Shown here piece by piece: positions 2 through 51,903 of a DNA stretch of 51,903 nucleotides; the stretch's first letter is position 1, and each line of letters begins with the position of its first letter. The notes beneath the pieces are model-generated. The model saw nothing but the letters and a program-made list of their open reading frames with translations, was not told the DNA's origin and ran no database searches. Made by a program: the position numbers and the translations under genes. Source of the DNA: Bacteroidota bacterium (GTDB taxonomy: Bacteria > Bacteroidota > Bacteroidia > Bacteroidales > B18-G4); assembly GCA_018831055.1 (NCBI GenBank), contig JAHJRE010000088.1, forward strand, positions 1 through 51,903, given 5' to 3'.

Positions 2-712
2 TCCGACCTAAGCTACCTCGGTGAAGCTGAAAAGGTAACCATCGACAAGGAAAACACAACCATCGTCAGCGGTAAAGGTAAAAAAGAAGATATCGAAGGC
101 AGGGTAAAACAAATTAAAGCCCAGATTGAAGTCACTACCTCCGACTACGATAAGGAAAAACTTCAGGAAAGACTTGCTAAACTTGCCGGTGGTGTTGCCG
201 TTATCTACGTTGGAGCTGCCAGTGAAGTCGAAATGAAGGAAAAGAAAGACAGGTTCGATGACGCCCTCAACGCAACTCGCGCAGCCATTGAAGAAGGTAT
301 TATCCCCGGTGGCGGTGTTGCTTACCTGAGAGCCGTTCCTGAACTCGACAACATTGAGACAGAAAACGAAGACGAAGAAATCGGTATCGCAATTATTAAA
401 AGAGCTCTGGAAGAACCTATGCGCCAAATAGTGGAAAATGCCGGACTCGAAGGCTCCGTCATTGTTCAGAAAGTCAGGGAAGGTAAAGACGACTTCGGCT
501 TTAACGCCAGAACCGAAGAATATGAATACCTCTTCGAATCCGGTGTGATCGACCCAACCAAAGTTGCCCGCGTTGCCCTGGAAAACGCAGCTTCTATTGC
601 AGGTATGTTACTTACTACCGAATGTGTACTCGCCGACCATAAAGAAGAAAAGGAAAGCGGTGGTATGCCCGGTGGCCCCGGAATGGGCGGCGGAATGCCA
701 GGAATGTATTAA
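2..712 (+). CDS. groEL: Chaperonin GroEL, C-terminal part (5' end outside window)
   Basis: This is the last 236 residues of the 60-kDa chaperonin, the ATP-driven protein-folding ring of the cytoplasm. The reading frame is open from the first bases of the window, so the start and the N-terminal half lie upstream. The visible part covers the end of the apical domain, the returning intermediate domain (the [10 protein letters not shown] stretch near 200) and the C-terminal equatorial domain with the conserved [10 protein letters not shown] nucleotide-binding loop. It ends in the typical Gly-Met-rich tail ([17 protein letters not shown]), so the 3' end is intact. groES would be expected upstream, outside the window. 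A strong hairpin terminator follows 20 bases downstream. Confidence 0.98.
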
Positions 713-731
713 AATACATTAAACCATTACT

Positions 732-762
732 AAAAAACCCCTCTTCATTCGAGGGGTTTTTT
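732..762 (+). terminator. Rho-independent terminator of groEL
   Basis: Perfect 12-bp hairpin: an A-run plus CCCCTC at 732-743, a 7-base loop, then GAGGGG and six T at 751-762. It sits 20 bases after the groEL stop codon. Confidence 0.95.
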
Positions 763-44990: not shown

Positions 44991-45812
44991 TCAGGCAAAC
45001 ATCAGCAAACTAAACGCCATTACCGCCATACCGGCAACCAGTCCGTAAATGGAAAGATGGTGTTCCCCATATTCCCTTGCTGCCGGCAATAGTTCATCAA
45101 TAGAGATGAAGACCATGATCCCGGCAACAGATGCGAACAAGACGCCAAAAACAGCCGGTGTGATAAAGGGCATAAGGATAAGATAACCCAGGATGGCTCC
45201 CGCAGGCTCTGCCAGACCCGAAGAGAAGGAATACCAGAATGCCTTTCTTTTGCTGCCGGTTGCGTAAAAAATAGGAACAGATACTGCAATGCCTTCCGGG
45301 ATGTTGTGAATTGCAATAGCAACTGCAATGGCGATACCCAGTCCGGGCTCGGTCAATGCGGCGGTAAAGGTGGCAAGCCCTTCCGGAAAATTATGGATAG
45401 CTATGGCAAGGGCAGTAAATAAACCCATGCGCATAAGCTTTTCATTACGCCCGTTATTTGCCGTTCCAGGTTGAATTTCTTCTATCATCCTGATCTCATG
45501 CGGATTTTCATATCCCGGGATAAGCTTGTCGATGATCGCAATCAGTAAGATCCCGCCGAAAAATCCGGCCGTTGTGTACCAGAATGCCGAAGTATCGCCG
45601 TAAACGCCGACAAGTGAGTCCCTGGCCTTTCCGAATATTTCCACGAAAGAGACATAAATCATTACCCCAGCCGAAAAACCCAGCGATATAGCGAGAAATT
45701 TCGTGTTGGTCTGCTTTGTAAAAAAAGCGAGTGCACTGCCTATCCCGGTCGACAAACCGGCAAACAGGGTAAGCGCAAAGGCAAATAATACCGTTCCCGT
45801 TTGAAATTCCAT
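44991..45812 (-). CDS. zupT: ZIP family zinc transporter (ZupT-like)
   Basis: A 273-residue metal importer with eight predicted membrane helices. The binuclear metal site in helices 4 and 5 is intact: HNFPEG (140-145) and HNIPEG (169-174). Other ZupT features are [10 protein letters not shown] in helix 2 and [17 protein letters not shown] before the last helix. It should bring Zn2+ or related divalent ions into the cytoplasm. It starts 20 bases after the TPR gene, so it may be the tail of the long minus-strand operon. Confidence 0.94.
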
Positions 45813-45832: not shown

Positions 45833-46459
45833 TTATTGCACCCATTTCAACCCCTCAATGGCGGATTCATCTTCGGGATTGTATAGTAACACCTGTCGAA
45901 AAAGCACCCCCGCTTCTCTTAGTTTTCCCAGTTTCAGGTTCGTCCAGGCGTACATGATCAATCCATCATAATCAAAAGGATAGAGATTCACAATCTTTTC
46001 AAAATGAGTGAATGCCTTATCGTATACTTCATTATTGTAGTAATACAAACCCAACTTATAATGGGCAATGGTATTCTGGGGGTCTATCTCCAGGATCTTT
46101 TCGTATTGATTTACGACAAGATTCCAGTTTCCCAGGGCGGAAGCCGGAAAGGTTATGCCAAACCGTGGTTCCAATGAATAGGGCTTCAACCCGATTGCAC
46201 GCTGGTAATAGGCCATGGATTCGGTAAAGCTTCCATTTTGATAACTCAGCCATCCCAATCTTAAATTCAGGATATAATGATCCTCGCTGTAAACATCTTT
46301 CAATGCTTTAATGGCCTTTGTATATTCGCCCGATTCCTGCCAGGTGTAACTTGAACGAAAAGCCTCTTTCATCGTATTATAATCCTGTGCTGTCGAAAGG
46401 GTTATTCCTGAGAATATCAGAAATAAAACAGTTAAAAACCTATGCGCTAAAAGTTCCAT
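45833..46459 (-). CDS. Exported TPR protein
   Basis: A 208-residue protein with a signal peptide (FLTVLFLIFSGITLSTA) and four or five tetratricopeptide repeats: ESGEYTKAIKALKDVY, YQNGSFTESMAYYQRAIGLKP, ALGNWNLVVNQYEKILEIDPQ, YNNEVYDKAFTHFEKIVNLYP and LGKLREAGVLFRQVLLYNPE. It is likely a periplasmic scaffold. Its ATG overlaps the stop of the beta-barrel gene by 13 bases, so the two are probably translationally coupled and the proteins may form a complex. Confidence 0.85.
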   Translation of the reverse strand: MELLAHRFLTVLFLIFSGITLSTAQDYNTMKEAFRSSYTWQESGEYTKAIKALKDVYSEDHYILNLRLGWLSYQNGSFTESMAYYQRAIGLKPYSLEPRFGITFPASALGNWNLVVNQYEKILEIDPQNTIAHYKLGLYYYNNEVYDKAFTHFEKIVNLYPFDYDGLIMYAWTNLKLGKLREAGVLFRQVLLYNPEDESAIEGLKWVQ

Positions 46460-47916
46460 TGTATTCCTCCGAAAAAATTATTGTGAAAGTAGTCAAAACT
46501 ATGAAACCGGAATTCGCCCTTTGGCGAATCGTGAAACACTGCGTATACTCCCTCCTTTGCCAGGAACTGATAACGCAGATTAAAAGAAAGGTGCTCCGAT
46601 AGTGGGAAAATCAACCTCATTGCAAGTCGATATTTAATTTTATCAGTAATGGTAAATATTACCAGGCCGTTGTTTTCAGAAGTATAAGACAGGTCACCCA
46701 CCGTGACCGAGCCTTCAGTCCAGAGCCAGGATAAAATCCTGCCTCCCAATACCTGGTGAAAGATCAAACGATACTCCTTGTCTGTTAAGAAATTTCTCAA
46801 TTCTGTCGTGGAATAAAAATTCAGGTTACCACTGGGGAACCAGGTCAGCCGCCCATCGATCTGAAAAAACTTCCTTTCGTTCAGGCTGGAATAAATTGCA
46901 GAAATGCCTCCGTTAAATCGGGAAAAGGATTTATTCACCGACAGCGCCCCCAGGTAATCGTTTGTGCTGACATTCCTGGTGGTAAAACTATAAGCGGGTC
47001 TTTCATAAGTAAACCAAAACGTTTGTTGACCATCATAAACAAAATAAGCCGTGTCGGAAGCTTCTTGCGGTTCATACCGGGCTTCCGTAACGGGAAAATT
47101 TAGCATTGAGTAGTGAAATGCAGGAATAATCTGAATTTCATTTTTTAATGTAAAAGTGGCATTAAGATACAGCTCATTTTGTCTGACCTTATAATCTATG
47201 ATATTCTGATTATCGGTCACCGGAAAAGAATAATACTTTGAATAACCCCACGATTCATAAACAACAGAATCCACCTTTGCTTCATACAGGGTATATTCAA
47301 AGCGTTTTCTCATATCTGCTTCGATGAAGTTATACCCAACATACATCTTAACACGGTCTGAAAGGCGGAAGCGCACTCCGGCATGAGCATATCTGCCGTT
47401 ACCATATAAAAGCTGCTCTCCATAAATCTGATCCTTGCCCATAATATTCAGGTCCGAATTCTTAGAGATATTATTGGTAGTCAAGAGGCCTCCTTCTGCA
47501 TATACCATTTCCAGGAATTTATTTTCCGGGATTTTCAGGGATTGTTTCAGGAATGAAGGGATTTTTCGGTTTACGGAAGTAATGACATCGTTTTGCCCTG
47601 AAAACTTCAGGGAATAGTAGTAGTAAGTCCAGGCATCCTTATCAAGGCTGTTGAAGTCAAGAGCCCTGCGAAACTGGCGGGCTGCCTCAATATAATTGTG
47701 CTTTTCATAGTATGCTATACCCAGTCTCATTCTGAGATAGAAATAATCCGTGCCTGCCCCGAGGGCTTCCTTTCCTTTTTTCACCAGTCTGTCCCAGTCC
47801 TGATGCAGATAAAGGCTGTACGTAATGCTATCGGATGCATGAAATGTTCTTTCCTGGGAAAAACCGGCTTGCATACCCGTAAAAATGACTAATACCAACA
47901 TCACTAATCTTCCCAT
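46447..47916 (-). CDS. TPR plus outer-membrane beta-barrel protein (YaiO-like architecture)
   Basis: A 489-residue protein with a signal peptide (LVMLVLVIFTGMQAGFS), a short TPR region (about 35-115: YYEKHNYIEAARQFRRALDFN), then about 300 residues of alternating amphipathic strands rich in Tyr and Phe (GVRFRLSDRVKMYVGYNF, NELYLNATFTLKNEIQIIPAF and so on), ending in aromatic IQWNF as outer-membrane barrels do. The arrangement resembles YaiO-family proteins, but I cannot confirm membership. It overlaps the genes on both sides by 13 bases, each time inside an ATGG-to-TAG overlap. Confidence 0.78.
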   Translation of the reverse strand: MGRLVMLVLVIFTGMQAGFSQERTFHASDSITYSLYLHQDWDRLVKKGKEALGAGTDYFYLRMRLGIAYYEKHNYIEAARQFRRALDFNSLDKDAWTYYYYSLKFSGQNDVITSVNRKIPSFLKQSLKIPENKFLEMVYAEGGLLTTNNISKNSDLNIMGKDQIYGEQLLYGNGRYAHAGVRFRLSDRVKMYVGYNFIEADMRKRFEYTLYEAKVDSVVYESWGYSKYYSFPVTDNQNIIDYKVRQNELYLNATFTLKNEIQIIPAFHYSMLNFPVTEARYEPQEASDTAYFVYDGQQTFWFTYERPAYSFTTRNVSTNDYLGALSVNKSFSRFNGGISAIYSSLNERKFFQIDGRLTWFPSGNLNFYSTTELRNFLTDKEYRLIFHQVLGGRILSWLWTEGSVTVGDLSYTSENNGLVIFTITDKIKYRLAMRLIFPLSEHLSFNLRYQFLAKEGVYAVFHDSPKGEFRFHSFDYFHNNFFGGIQWNF

Positions 47917-50123
47917 ATGGCTTTAATTTCTTTATTAGGGGCAGTAATGGTAAAAACCGACAATTTTCCGTCTGCGATTTCCATCCGGAACCGGATGTTC
48001 CTGATCGGCTTTTTCCCGATACAAGCATTAACTTTGGAATTCAGGGTGATTTTTTCATTCAGAAAATCGCTGGTCTTTTCAGCCAATTCAAGTGTATAGG
48101 TTATGTTTACCAACCTCAAGAATGGAGCCATAAAATCCTGAAAAGGTTTGATCCAGGAAACCGTAAACATATGATCGGGAATACGATCATTTATCGTTAT
48201 CCCCTGGTAATACCCATAAATGACTTTGAATGCACCCAGGTAGAAATAATACAGAAGGGACTTTCTGTTTCCTGTAAAATCGATAAAAAAGACAACGCCG
48301 TCGACTGCTTTGAAATATGCTCTGGAGCCGGATTCTTCGCATTTAATGTAAGTATTGTTCAGACTATCGGCCTCCACTTTCCACGAAACCCTTTCCTCAG
48401 CGTGATTCAACAAGTCTTTAACCAGGAAAGAAAATTTCTGACCGGGAACCAGTCCGAAAGCCTTTTTCAGCATTGCATTCCTGCTGATATTGGATAATAA
48501 TTCATTTTCTTCCGGGACTGCGTATGCCTTCAATTCGGGTCTCTTTTCCCGGAAGCTGATATAATAAGCAAAAGGATAGTGAATCGTAGCAGATCCAATA
48601 AAGGGATCTTTCTGAACCTGAAAATGAAGATGAGGATAAGGAGATCTTCCACTGTTCCCGCAATGAGCCAAAACATCACCTTTTTTTACAAAATCGCCTT
48701 TAGCCACTTTGAACGATCCTTCCTTCAGATGGCTAAGCTTGGTAAATAGTTTGTCAGTATGCCGGATGATAATGGTGTTTCCCCAGTTTTGCCTTAGATT
48801 GACTTCGCCAACCGGATTGTCCGGGATACCATCAGCGATTTCCTCTACTTTCCCGTCGGCAGGAGCTATGACCGGTTTGTTGAAACAGTAATAATCCGCC
48901 AAATCATCTCCCTTGCTATTAAAAACCTTTCCCTCTTCATCCTCAATCTGAAAATCCAGTCCGTGTTTCCATTCTCCCTGATGGGTGTATTTGCCGCTAT
49001 ATCCCTGTGTCACTTTCCATTCACCGTAAAAAGGCAGAGACAAGCTCATATTTACATCGGGGCGAAAGCGTTCAAGAAAGTTGCGACTGATATACAAATT
49101 CTTTTCCGGGGAATGGTGCTGCACATAAACCAGTTCAGGGCTGCGGAAAAACCTTTCCCGAAACTTCATTACATACAGAAAGAGCAGAACAATGAAATTA
49201 AAAGGCAGGGAATACACCGAAAGCTGTAATGTGTAAAACAATGCTGAGGTGCTGCTGATCGTGATTGAAATCAAAGGGATTAATAAGACCACCCAAAGAA
49301 AAGAGCTCCTGGAAGGAATGATGAAAAACCCTCCAACTGCAATGGCTGTGAGGATGAAATTGAAGCCGATGTAACTGTAATTTAATTCGGAAATATCGGC
49401 CCCTATCAACCTGTAAAAGTAGTATGCGGAAAAGAAACCTACCAGGCTCAGCAGGAAAGAGATCCTGGAACAGATCAGCACTCCAATGGCAATGATCAAC
49501 CCTGGAAAGAGATGATACTGAAAGAAGATGGCCCCGAGGGAACGAAAATAAATAACCCAGGATTGAGGTATGTTGAGATTGTTGAACCACTCATAAATTT
49601 TCACAAGGTTAATCCCGCCAATGGCATACATTTCATTCAGGGAAAAGATGCCGCCTTCACTAATCTCAAGCGAAGTTACAGAACGAGCAGCCAGGGTCAC
49701 CATCCAGAGCGAGATCAGAAAAGGAATACTGAGATAAGGCAGTCCGTACTTTCCGATCACACCTTCCATCATAAGCGTAATAAACAGTGTAAACATGGCT
49801 GTAAAAGCCAGAATAAGGTAGAATTCCACACCCGGCTGATAAAACACTCCCAGTCCTAATCCTACCAACAGGCTGTTAAATCCATAGTATCCAGCTTTGA
49901 TGTTAAACCGGTTGAACCCCATGAAGAACGCTGCGAGATTCGAAATCACCACAGAGATTAATCCGGCAAGACCCGCGTTTATATCAAACAAGGTAACAAC
50001 GAGTAAAATAACCGCAAAAATCCTCGAATGGGAAAAGAAAACCTGCGAATAGCTATTGCCAATGCTCAGCAAAAAGGCCGAAACAACTGATTTCCAACGC
50101 TTGTATGATATAGGTTGCATCAT
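47904..50123 (-). CDS. Urea transporter - M23 (LytM) peptidase fusion
   Basis: A 739-residue fusion. Residues 10-320 form a urea-transporter domain with about ten helices and the pseudo-symmetric pore signatures GFNSLLVGLGLG (81-92) and GFNFILTAIAVGGFF (253-267). Residues 360-520 are an M23 beta-sheet domain: GEWKVTQGYSGKYTHQG, PVIAPADGKVEEIADG, NTIIIRH, GDVLAHCGNSGRSPYPHLHFQV with the HxH pair His498/His500. The first zinc motif is odd: HxxxD would put Lys386 at the His position, with His387 shifted by one (KHGLD). The C-terminal 200 residues are unassigned. ATGA overlap with the decarboxylase gene. Confidence 0.88.
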   Translation of the reverse strand: MMQPISYKRWKSVVSAFLLSIGNSYSQVFFSHSRIFAVILLVVTLFDINAGLAGLISVVISNLAAFFMGFNRFNIKAGYYGFNSLLVGLGLGVFYQPGVEFYLILAFTAMFTLFITLMMEGVIGKYGLPYLSIPFLISLWMVTLAARSVTSLEISEGGIFSLNEMYAIGGINLVKIYEWFNNLNIPQSWVIYFRSLGAIFFQYHLFPGLIIAIGVLICSRISFLLSLVGFFSAYYFYRLIGADISELNYSYIGFNFILTAIAVGGFFIIPSRSSFLWVVLLIPLISITISSTSALFYTLQLSVYSLPFNFIVLLFLYVMKFRERFFRSPELVYVQHHSPEKNLYISRNFLERFRPDVNMSLSLPFYGEWKVTQGYSGKYTHQGEWKHGLDFQIEDEEGKVFNSKGDDLADYYCFNKPVIAPADGKVEEIADGIPDNPVGEVNLRQNWGNTIIIRHTDKLFTKLSHLKEGSFKVAKGDFVKKGDVLAHCGNSGRSPYPHLHFQVQKDPFIGSATIHYPFAYYISFREKRPELKAYAVPEENELLSNISRNAMLKKAFGLVPGQKFSFLVKDLLNHAEERVSWKVEADSLNNTYIKCEESGSRAYFKAVDGVVFFIDFTGNRKSLLYYFYLGAFKVIYGYYQGITINDRIPDHMFTVSWIKPFQDFMAPFLRLVNITYTLELAEKTSDFLNEKITLNSKVNACIGKKPIRNIRFRMEIADGKLSVFTITAPNKEIKAIWED

Positions 50124-51481
50124 TTAAGGTCAAAACGGTTAAGATTAGCAGGGACCAATTCGTTCTGAACCAGTTGATCCAAGGTCTCATTCTCCCTGAT
50201 AACATGAGGAATACTGTCTTCGTCGATTATCACTACTTTGGGTCTCAGCGTGATGAACTGCATCCATTGGGTCATATTGTAGGCACCAACGCTGTGAATG
50301 ACAAAATGATCCCCTTTGTTCATCAATGGAAGGTTGATACTTTCACGGATCACATCGATATTCATACAGAGGGGTCCGTAAACTACAGTTTCCTCCGTAT
50401 ACTGGGTTTGTTTCCTTGCAGGTGAAATCTTATGATCGTACCAGAAAGAAGTAAACAAGAGGTTTACACCCACGTCAACGATGGTTGTGCGCCTGCCATC
50501 GGAGAGACGTTTATTGGCGATGACGGTACCAAGCAGATAACCGGCATCATCGATGAGGGCTCTTCCGGTTTCAAGGATAAGTAAAGGCATATTCTCACGG
50601 TCGAAGTTGCTGTTCAGGAGTGGTGTAGTTATAGCTTCGGCATAATCATCAAAAGTAGGATTTGTATCGCTTGCAGGCAGGTATGCCCCTTTCAGCGTAT
50701 TTCCGGAAGCAAAGCCGCCTCCCATATCGATGTATTTAATCTCATGCTGGTATTTGTTCTTAAGTCCGATGGCAAGATCGGCCATTTTATACGCTGCTGT
50801 TTCATATGCTTTTGCCGTCATCATGTAAGTCCCGATATGCGTGTGAAGACCAACCAGGTCAAGCATATCAGAATGCATGATCTTGTTCAGGGCTTCCCAG
50901 GCCTGGCCGTTTTCATAATTGAAGCCAAAACGGTCCCACATGGGATAAACGCCTGTGTCCATATTGACCCTGATGGCCACTTTAGGCCTCTTCTTGGTCT
51001 TTTCAGCAATCTCAATAACGGAATATAACTCATCGAGGTGATCAATATGTATAAGAGACTCATTCAGGATAGCCTTGGTCAGGTCCTCTCCGGTCTTGTC
51101 AGGCCCGTTAAAAATGATCCTGTTCCCACTTACTCCGTTGGCAATAGCTTTATCGTATTCAAAACCCGATACAACCTCAGCCCATGAACCTTCCTGATGA
51201 TAAACCCTGCATACGGCATCTAAATAGTTGGTTTTGTATGACCAGGCGAATTGCACTTTTGGATAGCGAGTGGTAAAAGATTTGAGTGCGGCCCTGTATT
51301 TATTGCGAATTGTCTTTTCAGAGATCACAAACAAAGGTGAACCGTAAGTTTTAATCAATTCACTAACCGAAACATTATCGATGTATGGCATAGGAGAGTA
51401 TTCCGCCTTCATGCCGAATTTATTGGGAAGATTGCTTTCATGCCGGCGTATCACCGGCCGCTCATATCTTAGTTTTTCCAT
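50120..51481 (-). CDS. PLP-dependent decarboxylase (diaminopimelate/ornithine decarboxylase fold)
   Basis: A 453-residue fold-type III enzyme with an alanine-racemase-like barrel. Lys83 in AWSYKTNYL is the PLP Schiff-base lysine; HTHIG (213-217), the DRFGF motif (183-187), a GGGF phosphate loop (MGGGFASG), LETGRALIDDAG and YGPLCMNIDVI follow the family order, including the Cys-x-x-Asp of the second subunit. It is not a standard LysA: the N-terminus carries an extra 30 residues and the substrate pocket motifs differ. It sits in an operon between an ATP-grasp enzyme (11 bases upstream) and the urea-transporter fusion (ATGA overlap), so a dedicated role on an amino-acid-derived compound is likely. 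Confidence 0.88.
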   Translation of the reverse strand: MEKLRYERPVIRRHESNLPNKFGMKAEYSPMPYIDNVSVSELIKTYGSPLFVISEKTIRNKYRAALKSFTTRYPKVQFAWSYKTNYLDAVCRVYHQEGSWAEVVSGFEYDKAIANGVSGNRIIFNGPDKTGEDLTKAILNESLIHIDHLDELYSVIEIAEKTKKRPKVAIRVNMDTGVYPMWDRFGFNYENGQAWEALNKIMHSDMLDLVGLHTHIGTYMMTAKAYETAAYKMADLAIGLKNKYQHEIKYIDMGGGFASGNTLKGAYLPASDTNPTFDDYAEAITTPLLNSNFDRENMPLLILETGRALIDDAGYLLGTVIANKRLSDGRRTTIVDVGVNLLFTSFWYDHKISPARKQTQYTEETVVYGPLCMNIDVIRESINLPLMNKGDHFVIHSVGAYNMTQWMQFITLRPKVVIIDEDSIPHVIRENETLDQLVQNELVPANLNRFDLK

Positions 51482-51492
51482 AGTTATTGTAA

Positions 51493-51903
51493 TTATAATT
51501 CTCCGTTAATTGAAATTTGCTGAAATTCTTCAATGTTTACGATCATATCCCAGGAATAACGGATAAACATTTTTCCTACCGTATATTCCTGAAATGGAGG
51601 GACGTCTTTACCAAAAGCAAGGTTGACTAAAGCTTCAGGGATATTTTGCCCTGCACCGACTGCCAGATAGATCCAGGCCGGTATGCGTGGGTTTATTTCC
51701 AGAATATAAAACTCATTGTCTTTATTCTTCATGAGTTCCAGCTCAAAGCCTCCTTTCCATTTGGTCGAACTTAAAAACTTACGTGTAAGATCCAATATCT
51801 TGGGGTCGGAAATAGTTATTCCTCCCCATGCTTTTCCTTTATCAGTTATGTATTGCTTCCGCATCGGGACTGCTGAGATTGTATTTCCCTTCCCATCACC
51901 CAA
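51493..51903 (-). CDS. ATP-grasp enzyme, C-terminal part (5' end outside window)
   Basis: The last 136 or more residues of an ATP-grasp ligase; the frame is open at the window end. Visible are the C-terminal catalytic part: a glycine-rich lid region (DGKGNTISAVPMRK), then KWKGGFELELMKN and the metal-binding ILEINPRIPAWIYLA motif (Glu and Asn that bind Mg-ATP), as in carbamoyl-phosphate-synthase-like ATP-grasp proteins. The product could be an amide, a peptide or an acyl phosphate; the N-terminal substrate domain is not visible. It precedes the PLP decarboxylase by 11 bases and is the first gene of the operon seen here. Confidence 0.85.
   Translation of the reverse strand: MGDGKGNTISAVPMRKQYITDKGKAWGGITISDPKILDLTRKFLSSTKWKGGFELELMKNKDNEFYILEINPRIPAWIYLAVGAGQNIPEALVNLAFGKDVPPFQEYTVGKMFIRYSWDMIVNIEEFQQISINGEL

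Follow-up and report, generated by a model that had tools for sequence, protein, structure and literature searches.

The closest characterised relative of the decarboxylase considered here belongs to the FslC/FigC rhizoferrin pathway (PMC7857480, PDB 7kh2). According to the FigC study, this siderophore-making enzyme has threonines and a tyrosine where DAPDC has the arginine that binds the distal carboxylate, and a methionine in place of the acidic residue adjacent to the catalytic cysteine (PMC7857480). The ligase of this pathway is an NIS synthetase that acts before the decarboxylase, and the pathway includes an MFS exporter. The butirosin module BtrI/BtrJ/BtrK likewise combines a small protein, an ATP-grasp ligase (BtrJ) and a fold-III decarboxylase whose substrate is a linked amino acid; its small protein is an acyl carrier that has a serine for phosphopantetheine attachment. 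In lasso-peptide RiPP pathways, a PqqD-fold protein (TbiB1, TfuB1) stands beside a modifying enzyme, together with a precursor peptide, a lasso cyclase and a leader protease. Complete urea-transporter (UT) domains are found in dvUT and Yut.

The locus described here, which extends over the end of the window (the whole 51,903-nucleotide stretch of DNA analysed), resembles each of these systems in part. Its decarboxylase, like FslC/FigC, has lost both the diaminopimelate-binding arginine and the acidic residue beside the catalytic cysteine, and its ligase would similarly act before the decarboxylase. In contrast to that pathway, the ligase is an ATP-grasp enzyme with no NIS synthetase in the set, the MFS exporter is absent, the membrane parts differ and FigC His357 is not found (CMNID here versus CMQHD in FigC). 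The combination of small protein, ATP-grasp enzyme and decarboxylase is shared with the butirosin module, and BtrK structures were among the PDB matches of the decarboxylase, but the small protein here has the PqqD fold. Unlike the lasso-peptide pathways, the locus has no lasso cyclase or leader protease, in place of which it has the ATP-grasp enzyme and decarboxylase, and no precursor peptide was found. The UT domain is complete and keeps most pore positions, as in dvUT and Yut, but it is fused to an M23 domain and a C-terminal region and has alanine in place of one pore glutamate. By analogy, the parts recall the ligase-then-decarboxylase logic of FigC and BtrJ/BtrK combined with PqqD-type presentation. 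Every known kind of system considered failed at least one tested feature.

Consistent with the original prediction, Pfam, NCBIfam, PADLOC and the literature searched yielded no named system with this gene set. The same literature contained no paper joining a urea transporter with M23 and ATP-grasp, and none on Bacteroidetes that brings together PqqD, ATP-grasp and a decarboxylase. An anti-phage defence system was also considered and rejected: PADLOC models gave one weak, partial match, of the PqqD protein only.

Operon structure

The window is a complete contig (C88) of a 4.19-Mb assembly of 342 contigs, and its end falls within the operon. The five minus-strand genes initially recognised in it had the domains and spacings that had been described (Table 1). 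The ATP-grasp and decarboxylase genes are separated by 11 nt, the decarboxylase and UT-M23 genes overlap by 4 nt, and the UT-M23/barrel and barrel/TPR pairs each overlap by 13 nt; a ZIP transporter gene follows the TPR gene after 20 nt. Given the overlap sequence CAATGGAACTTTTAG, in which the TPR start codon lies inside the terminal QWNF-stop of the barrel (Gln-Trp-x-Phe-stop), the TPR gene is predicted to be translationally coupled to the barrel gene. The remainder of the operon was located at the end of contig C55, where a PqqD-like gene overlaps the ATP-grasp start by 8 nt. The two ATP-grasp pieces were 82% and 79% identical to an intact 348-aa sister protein, and approximately 21 residues fall between contigs C55 and C88. 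Because the contig ends there, the original prediction had missed the PqqD-like gene and the ATP-grasp N-terminus. Thus, the operon consists of six genes, in the order PqqD-like, ATP-grasp, decarboxylase, UT-M23, barrel and TPR.

Table 1. Coordinates of the operon genes, protein domains and neighbouring features at this and related loci
Feature	Location	Strand	Evidence or remark
ATP-grasp ligase, C-terminal 136 aa	51493-51903	minus	PF15632/PRK12767-type matches; cut by contig end
Fold-III PLP decarboxylase, FslC/FigC-like non-LysA type	50120-51481	minus	NF041039 238 bits
UT-M23 fusion	47904-50123	minus	PF03253 4.9e-57 + PF01551 2.2e-17
UT-M23 domains	UT channel 21-318; M23 about 363-510; C-terminal region about 530-739		
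TPR-barrel: signal peptide, TPR region, outer-membrane beta-barrel	46447-47916	minus	N-terminal TPR match, terminal QWNF
Exported (signal-peptide) TPR protein	45833-46459	minus	TPR_2 1.3e-17
ZIP/ZupT zinc transporter, accessory neighbour	44991-45812	minus	NF003243 395.6 bits vs cut-off 252
PqqD-like gene, 86 aa	L068 11727-11987, end of contig C55		PF05402 match
ATP-grasp N-terminal 191 aa	L068 11980-12552, end of contig C55		Identity to intact sister protein
HMA-AraC regulator, CzcA-like and CzcB-like genes	L068 4436-10568		Just upstream of operon 5' end
HMA-AraC regulator genes near operon	L044 12468-13064; L051, L054, L055, L057, L163		
UT and M23 as separate genes	L150 7944-10198		Genome G064
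661-aa secreted protein	L155 5926-7911		In place of PqqD
DUF302 gene	L037 4248-4634		Pfam match
Gene resembling the L037 DUF302 copy	L040 5198-5605		
~280-aa T9SS-exported protein	L143 2856-3698; L140, L141, L144, L146, L156		Directly upstream of PqqD

Conservation and co-occurrence

The distribution of the system was examined in an even sample of 395 Bacteroidota genomes, with cut-offs of E < 1e-30 for UT-M23, E < 1e-40 for ATP-grasp and E < 1e-80 for the decarboxylase. At these cut-offs, each of the three genes occurred in 34 of the 395 genomes and these were the identical 34, an all-or-none pattern spanning 27 genera and 16 families. The resulting frequency, estimated from the sample, is about 1 in 12 (ca. 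9% of sampled genomes). Chance clustering was rejected, the probability of this pattern being 1 in C(395,34), or about 10^-49, on the assumption of independent genomes, which these are not. Within the order, full-length UT-M23 was present in 28 of 60 genomes (own included), nearly always within this operon; the two halves lay apart in G034, G057 and G017. Genes scattered in relatives would have spoken against the original prediction of a dedicated system across both membranes; instead, the genes formed contiguous operons, and that prediction is supported. Our results establish the system as real and obligate, and as undescribed in the libraries and papers searched.

Gene order was also well conserved. 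In 48 of 49 loci, a PqqD gene was present no more than 500 nt upstream of ATP-grasp; the one divergent locus without it, L155, encodes a secreted protein instead. Same-strand neighbours no more than 50 nt apart were found for 40 of 46 ATP-grasp-decarboxylase pairs, 31 of 43 decarboxylase-UT pairs, 31 of 32 UT-barrel pairs and all 30 barrel-TPR pairs, and the 13-nt overlap recurred in 25 of the latter. Distance matrices of ATP-grasp, decarboxylase, UT-M23 and TPR were correlated at 0.80-0.89 (Spearman), and those involving the short PqqD protein at 0.45-0.60. No plasmid-borne copies of the system were found.

Some loci contained additional genes. In the family of the window, two loci (L037, L040) have a gene between the decarboxylase and UT-M23, which is a DUF302 gene in one and resembles it in the other. 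In six genomes of another class, the gene immediately preceding PqqD encodes a member of a T9SS-exported protein family.

In distant classes, UT-M23 is followed by TPR and then by a barrel of approximately 275 aa. Profile comparison indicated that the window barrel is homologous to these barrels (probability 96.5%), and the outer-membrane barrels of distant classes are on this basis one family, for which no Pfam or NCBIfam model was found.

Decarboxylase

The best curated family of the decarboxylase was FslC (NF041039), although the score was below the cut-off of 500 bits, and its best PDB match was 7kh2 (N-citrylornithine decarboxylase). Against the LysA family (TIGR01048), it scored 221 bits, below the cut-off of 297.9, and intact copies from the system scored approximately 206-248 bits. 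K83, H213 and C372 are kept, and the catalytic Lys, His, Glu, Arg, Cys, Asp and Tyr are invariant in the group. The diaminopimelate-recognising Arg is replaced by Thr or Ser (T344 in the window) and the corresponding Glu by Met (M373) in 51 of 51 system decarboxylases, versus Arg or Lys in 11/11 and Glu in 10/10 (one gap) in LysA of the same order. The system decarboxylases were monophyletic (local support 0.92). These pocket residues imply that the decarboxylase would act on an amino acid carrying another group on its side chain.

A separate true LysA above the cut-off was found in 29 of the 33 other phylum-level system genomes. In contrast, the 96%-complete genome of the window contained no LysA above the curated cut-off, nor did most system genomes of its order, unlike elsewhere in the phylum; this may reflect lysine auxotrophy or divergent enzymes.

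PqqD-like protein and ATP-grasp enzyme

The PqqD-like protein, of the RiPP-recognition (RRE) type, matched PF05402 at 39.7 bits (cut-off 23.4), and the PqqD profile matched TbiB1 at 7.7e-14. TbiB1 and TfuB1, its closest solved relatives, are lasso-peptide leader-binding (recognition) proteins. Of 2477 small ORFs scanned around the operons for a conserved precursor or scaffold peptide, only PqqD recurred. A precursor peptide that is distant or unusual may still exist. A role as a covalent carrier was rejected, as PqqD has no invariant Ser or Cys and its C-terminus is not conserved. The ATP-grasp enzyme was nearest to carbamoyl-phosphate-synthase-like ATP-grasp proteins, below every NCBIfam cut-off, and the reaction typical of its superfamily suggests amide formation. 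Both soluble enzymes, the decarboxylase and the ATP-grasp ligase, would be suitable for amide or amine synthesis, in line with what had been proposed from the window.

Channel-peptidase fusion

The UT domain scored 193.8 bits (Pfam cut-off 25), whereas the match to the Yut family was below the cut-off (112 versus 274.6 bits). Both the UT and M23 domains were present in 48 of 48 homologues, and H381, D390, H465, H498 and H500, the zinc ligands and catalytic histidines, were invariant among them. In comparison with dvUT, the first-half Gln, the slot Phe and Leu and, at each of the central sites, a hydroxyl residue were kept in most or all homologues, but the second-half Glu was Ala in most.

In known UT proteins, both ends lie inside the cell. 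In UT-M23, the N-terminus and the stretch immediately following the last helix contain more Lys/Arg than Asp/Glu, whereas acidic residues predominate in the middle loop. In G064, UT and M23 are encoded by separate genes that overlap by 4 nt, and no signal peptide precedes the M23 half; this locus, which also lacks barrel and TPR genes nearby, may be decaying. The charge bias and the split homologue point to a cytoplasmic location of the M23 domain, which weakens the original prediction of a periplasmic peptidoglycan peptidase. AlphaFold gave low confidence for the fusion (pLDDT 42) and its M23 plus C-terminal half (pLDDT 37) because the alignments used only sequences from the window and related loci.

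Proposed mechanism and alternatives

The gene set is probably responsible for producing and transporting a small molecule derived from an amino acid. In the best explanation, the PqqD protein would bring a partner, either a peptide or a protein, to the ATP-grasp enzyme for amide formation through an amino-acid side chain. The decarboxylase, judging from its pocket, would remove the alpha-carboxyl of this side-chain-linked amino acid. Positioned on the cytoplasmic side of the channel, the M23 domain could then hydrolyse the conjugate and a small neutral product might be released into the urea-type pore, after which the TPR and barrel proteins may carry it across the outer membrane. We put forward these workings of the six genes, from presentation to outer-membrane exit, only tentatively. 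Counting against this explanation are the normally extracytoplasmic location of M23 enzymes, which would make a cytoplasmic one atypical, the replaced pore glutamate, the lack of a conserved precursor peptide beside the operon and the locus without PqqD. That the system represents a new machine, an obligate unit in which an amino acid is tailored on a PqqD-type protein or its partner, cut by a cytoplasmic M23 domain at the mouth of the urea-type channel and exported via the dedicated TPR and barrel proteins, is rather doubtful at present.

Genes associated with metals occur beside some loci. Six Bacteroidales loci have a gene for an HMA-plus-AraC regulator only a gene or two away from the operon, and system contigs carry many of the top-scoring copies of this subfamily in the order. 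In L036 and L068, the regulator lies further upstream, beside CzcA-type efflux genes; the L068 CzcA-like protein (1459 aa) has an outer-membrane-efflux-like C-terminal part. The ZIP gene adjoins the system only in the window, L036, L040 and, on the upstream side instead, L133, so in two lineages, one of them the window's family, and on different sides. The ZIP transporter is not a core component, and a place for it in the unit is not supported. These neighbours, in part of the lineage, suggest metal handling as a possible purpose, which is compatible with the best mechanism: the product would be a metal-binding small molecule for acquisition or tolerance, with HMA-AraC as the metal-sensing regulator. 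The siderophore made by FigC, the nearest characterised decarboxylase (PMC7857480), and the CzcA/CzcB-type genes just upstream in L068 and L036 fit this purpose. Nevertheless, no metal gene recurs beside loci outside Bacteroidales, the set contains neither an NIS synthetase nor a TonB receptor, and the L036/L068 regulator may serve the efflux genes instead; we consider this purpose unlikely.

Envelope modification offers another explanation, in which a periplasmic M23 domain would cut peptidoglycan or an envelope peptide while the cytosolic enzymes make a group bearing an amine for attachment to the wall or an outer-membrane component. M23 domains are usually murein endopeptidases, all zinc and catalytic residues are invariant here, and the set closes with genes for a periplasmic TPR protein and an outer-membrane protein. 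However, the charge bias places both UT ends in the cytoplasm, no signal peptide is present on the separate M23 protein of G064, the set includes no periplasmic transferase, and we regard envelope modification as improbable. The direction of transport could also be reversed, such that a small amide or peptide fragment enters through the barrel, TPR protein and channel and is processed in the cytoplasm by M23, the decarboxylase and ATP-grasp. In favour of this, UT proteins work as passive channels, the pore residues are largely conserved, barrel-TPR pairs might provide a way in and a ZIP importer adjoins some loci. We consider uptake unlikely as well: ATP-grasp and PqqD are typical of biosynthesis, an imported substrate has no obvious need for a ligase and no conserved catabolic genes occur nearby. 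Finally, an ordinary LysA with unrelated neighbours, one of the outcomes that would have spoken against the original prediction, is hardly credible and was rejected: family-level similarity (221 bits) and the lack of a LysA above the cut-off in the window's own genome and many relatives favour it, but it is contradicted by the separate true LysA in 29 of 33 genomes, the replaced diaminopimelate residues in all 51 members of a monophyletic group and the perfect co-occurrence with the other system genes.

Implications

The decarboxylase of this system is open to misannotation as LysA, and the system includes a channel-peptidase fusion. Because the set is small enough to be expressed or deleted as a unit, metabolomics offers a direct way to look for its product. 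That such a set, for which no name was found, is strictly co-inherited across 16 families suggests a metabolite still to be discovered and a path through both membranes that has yet to be described.
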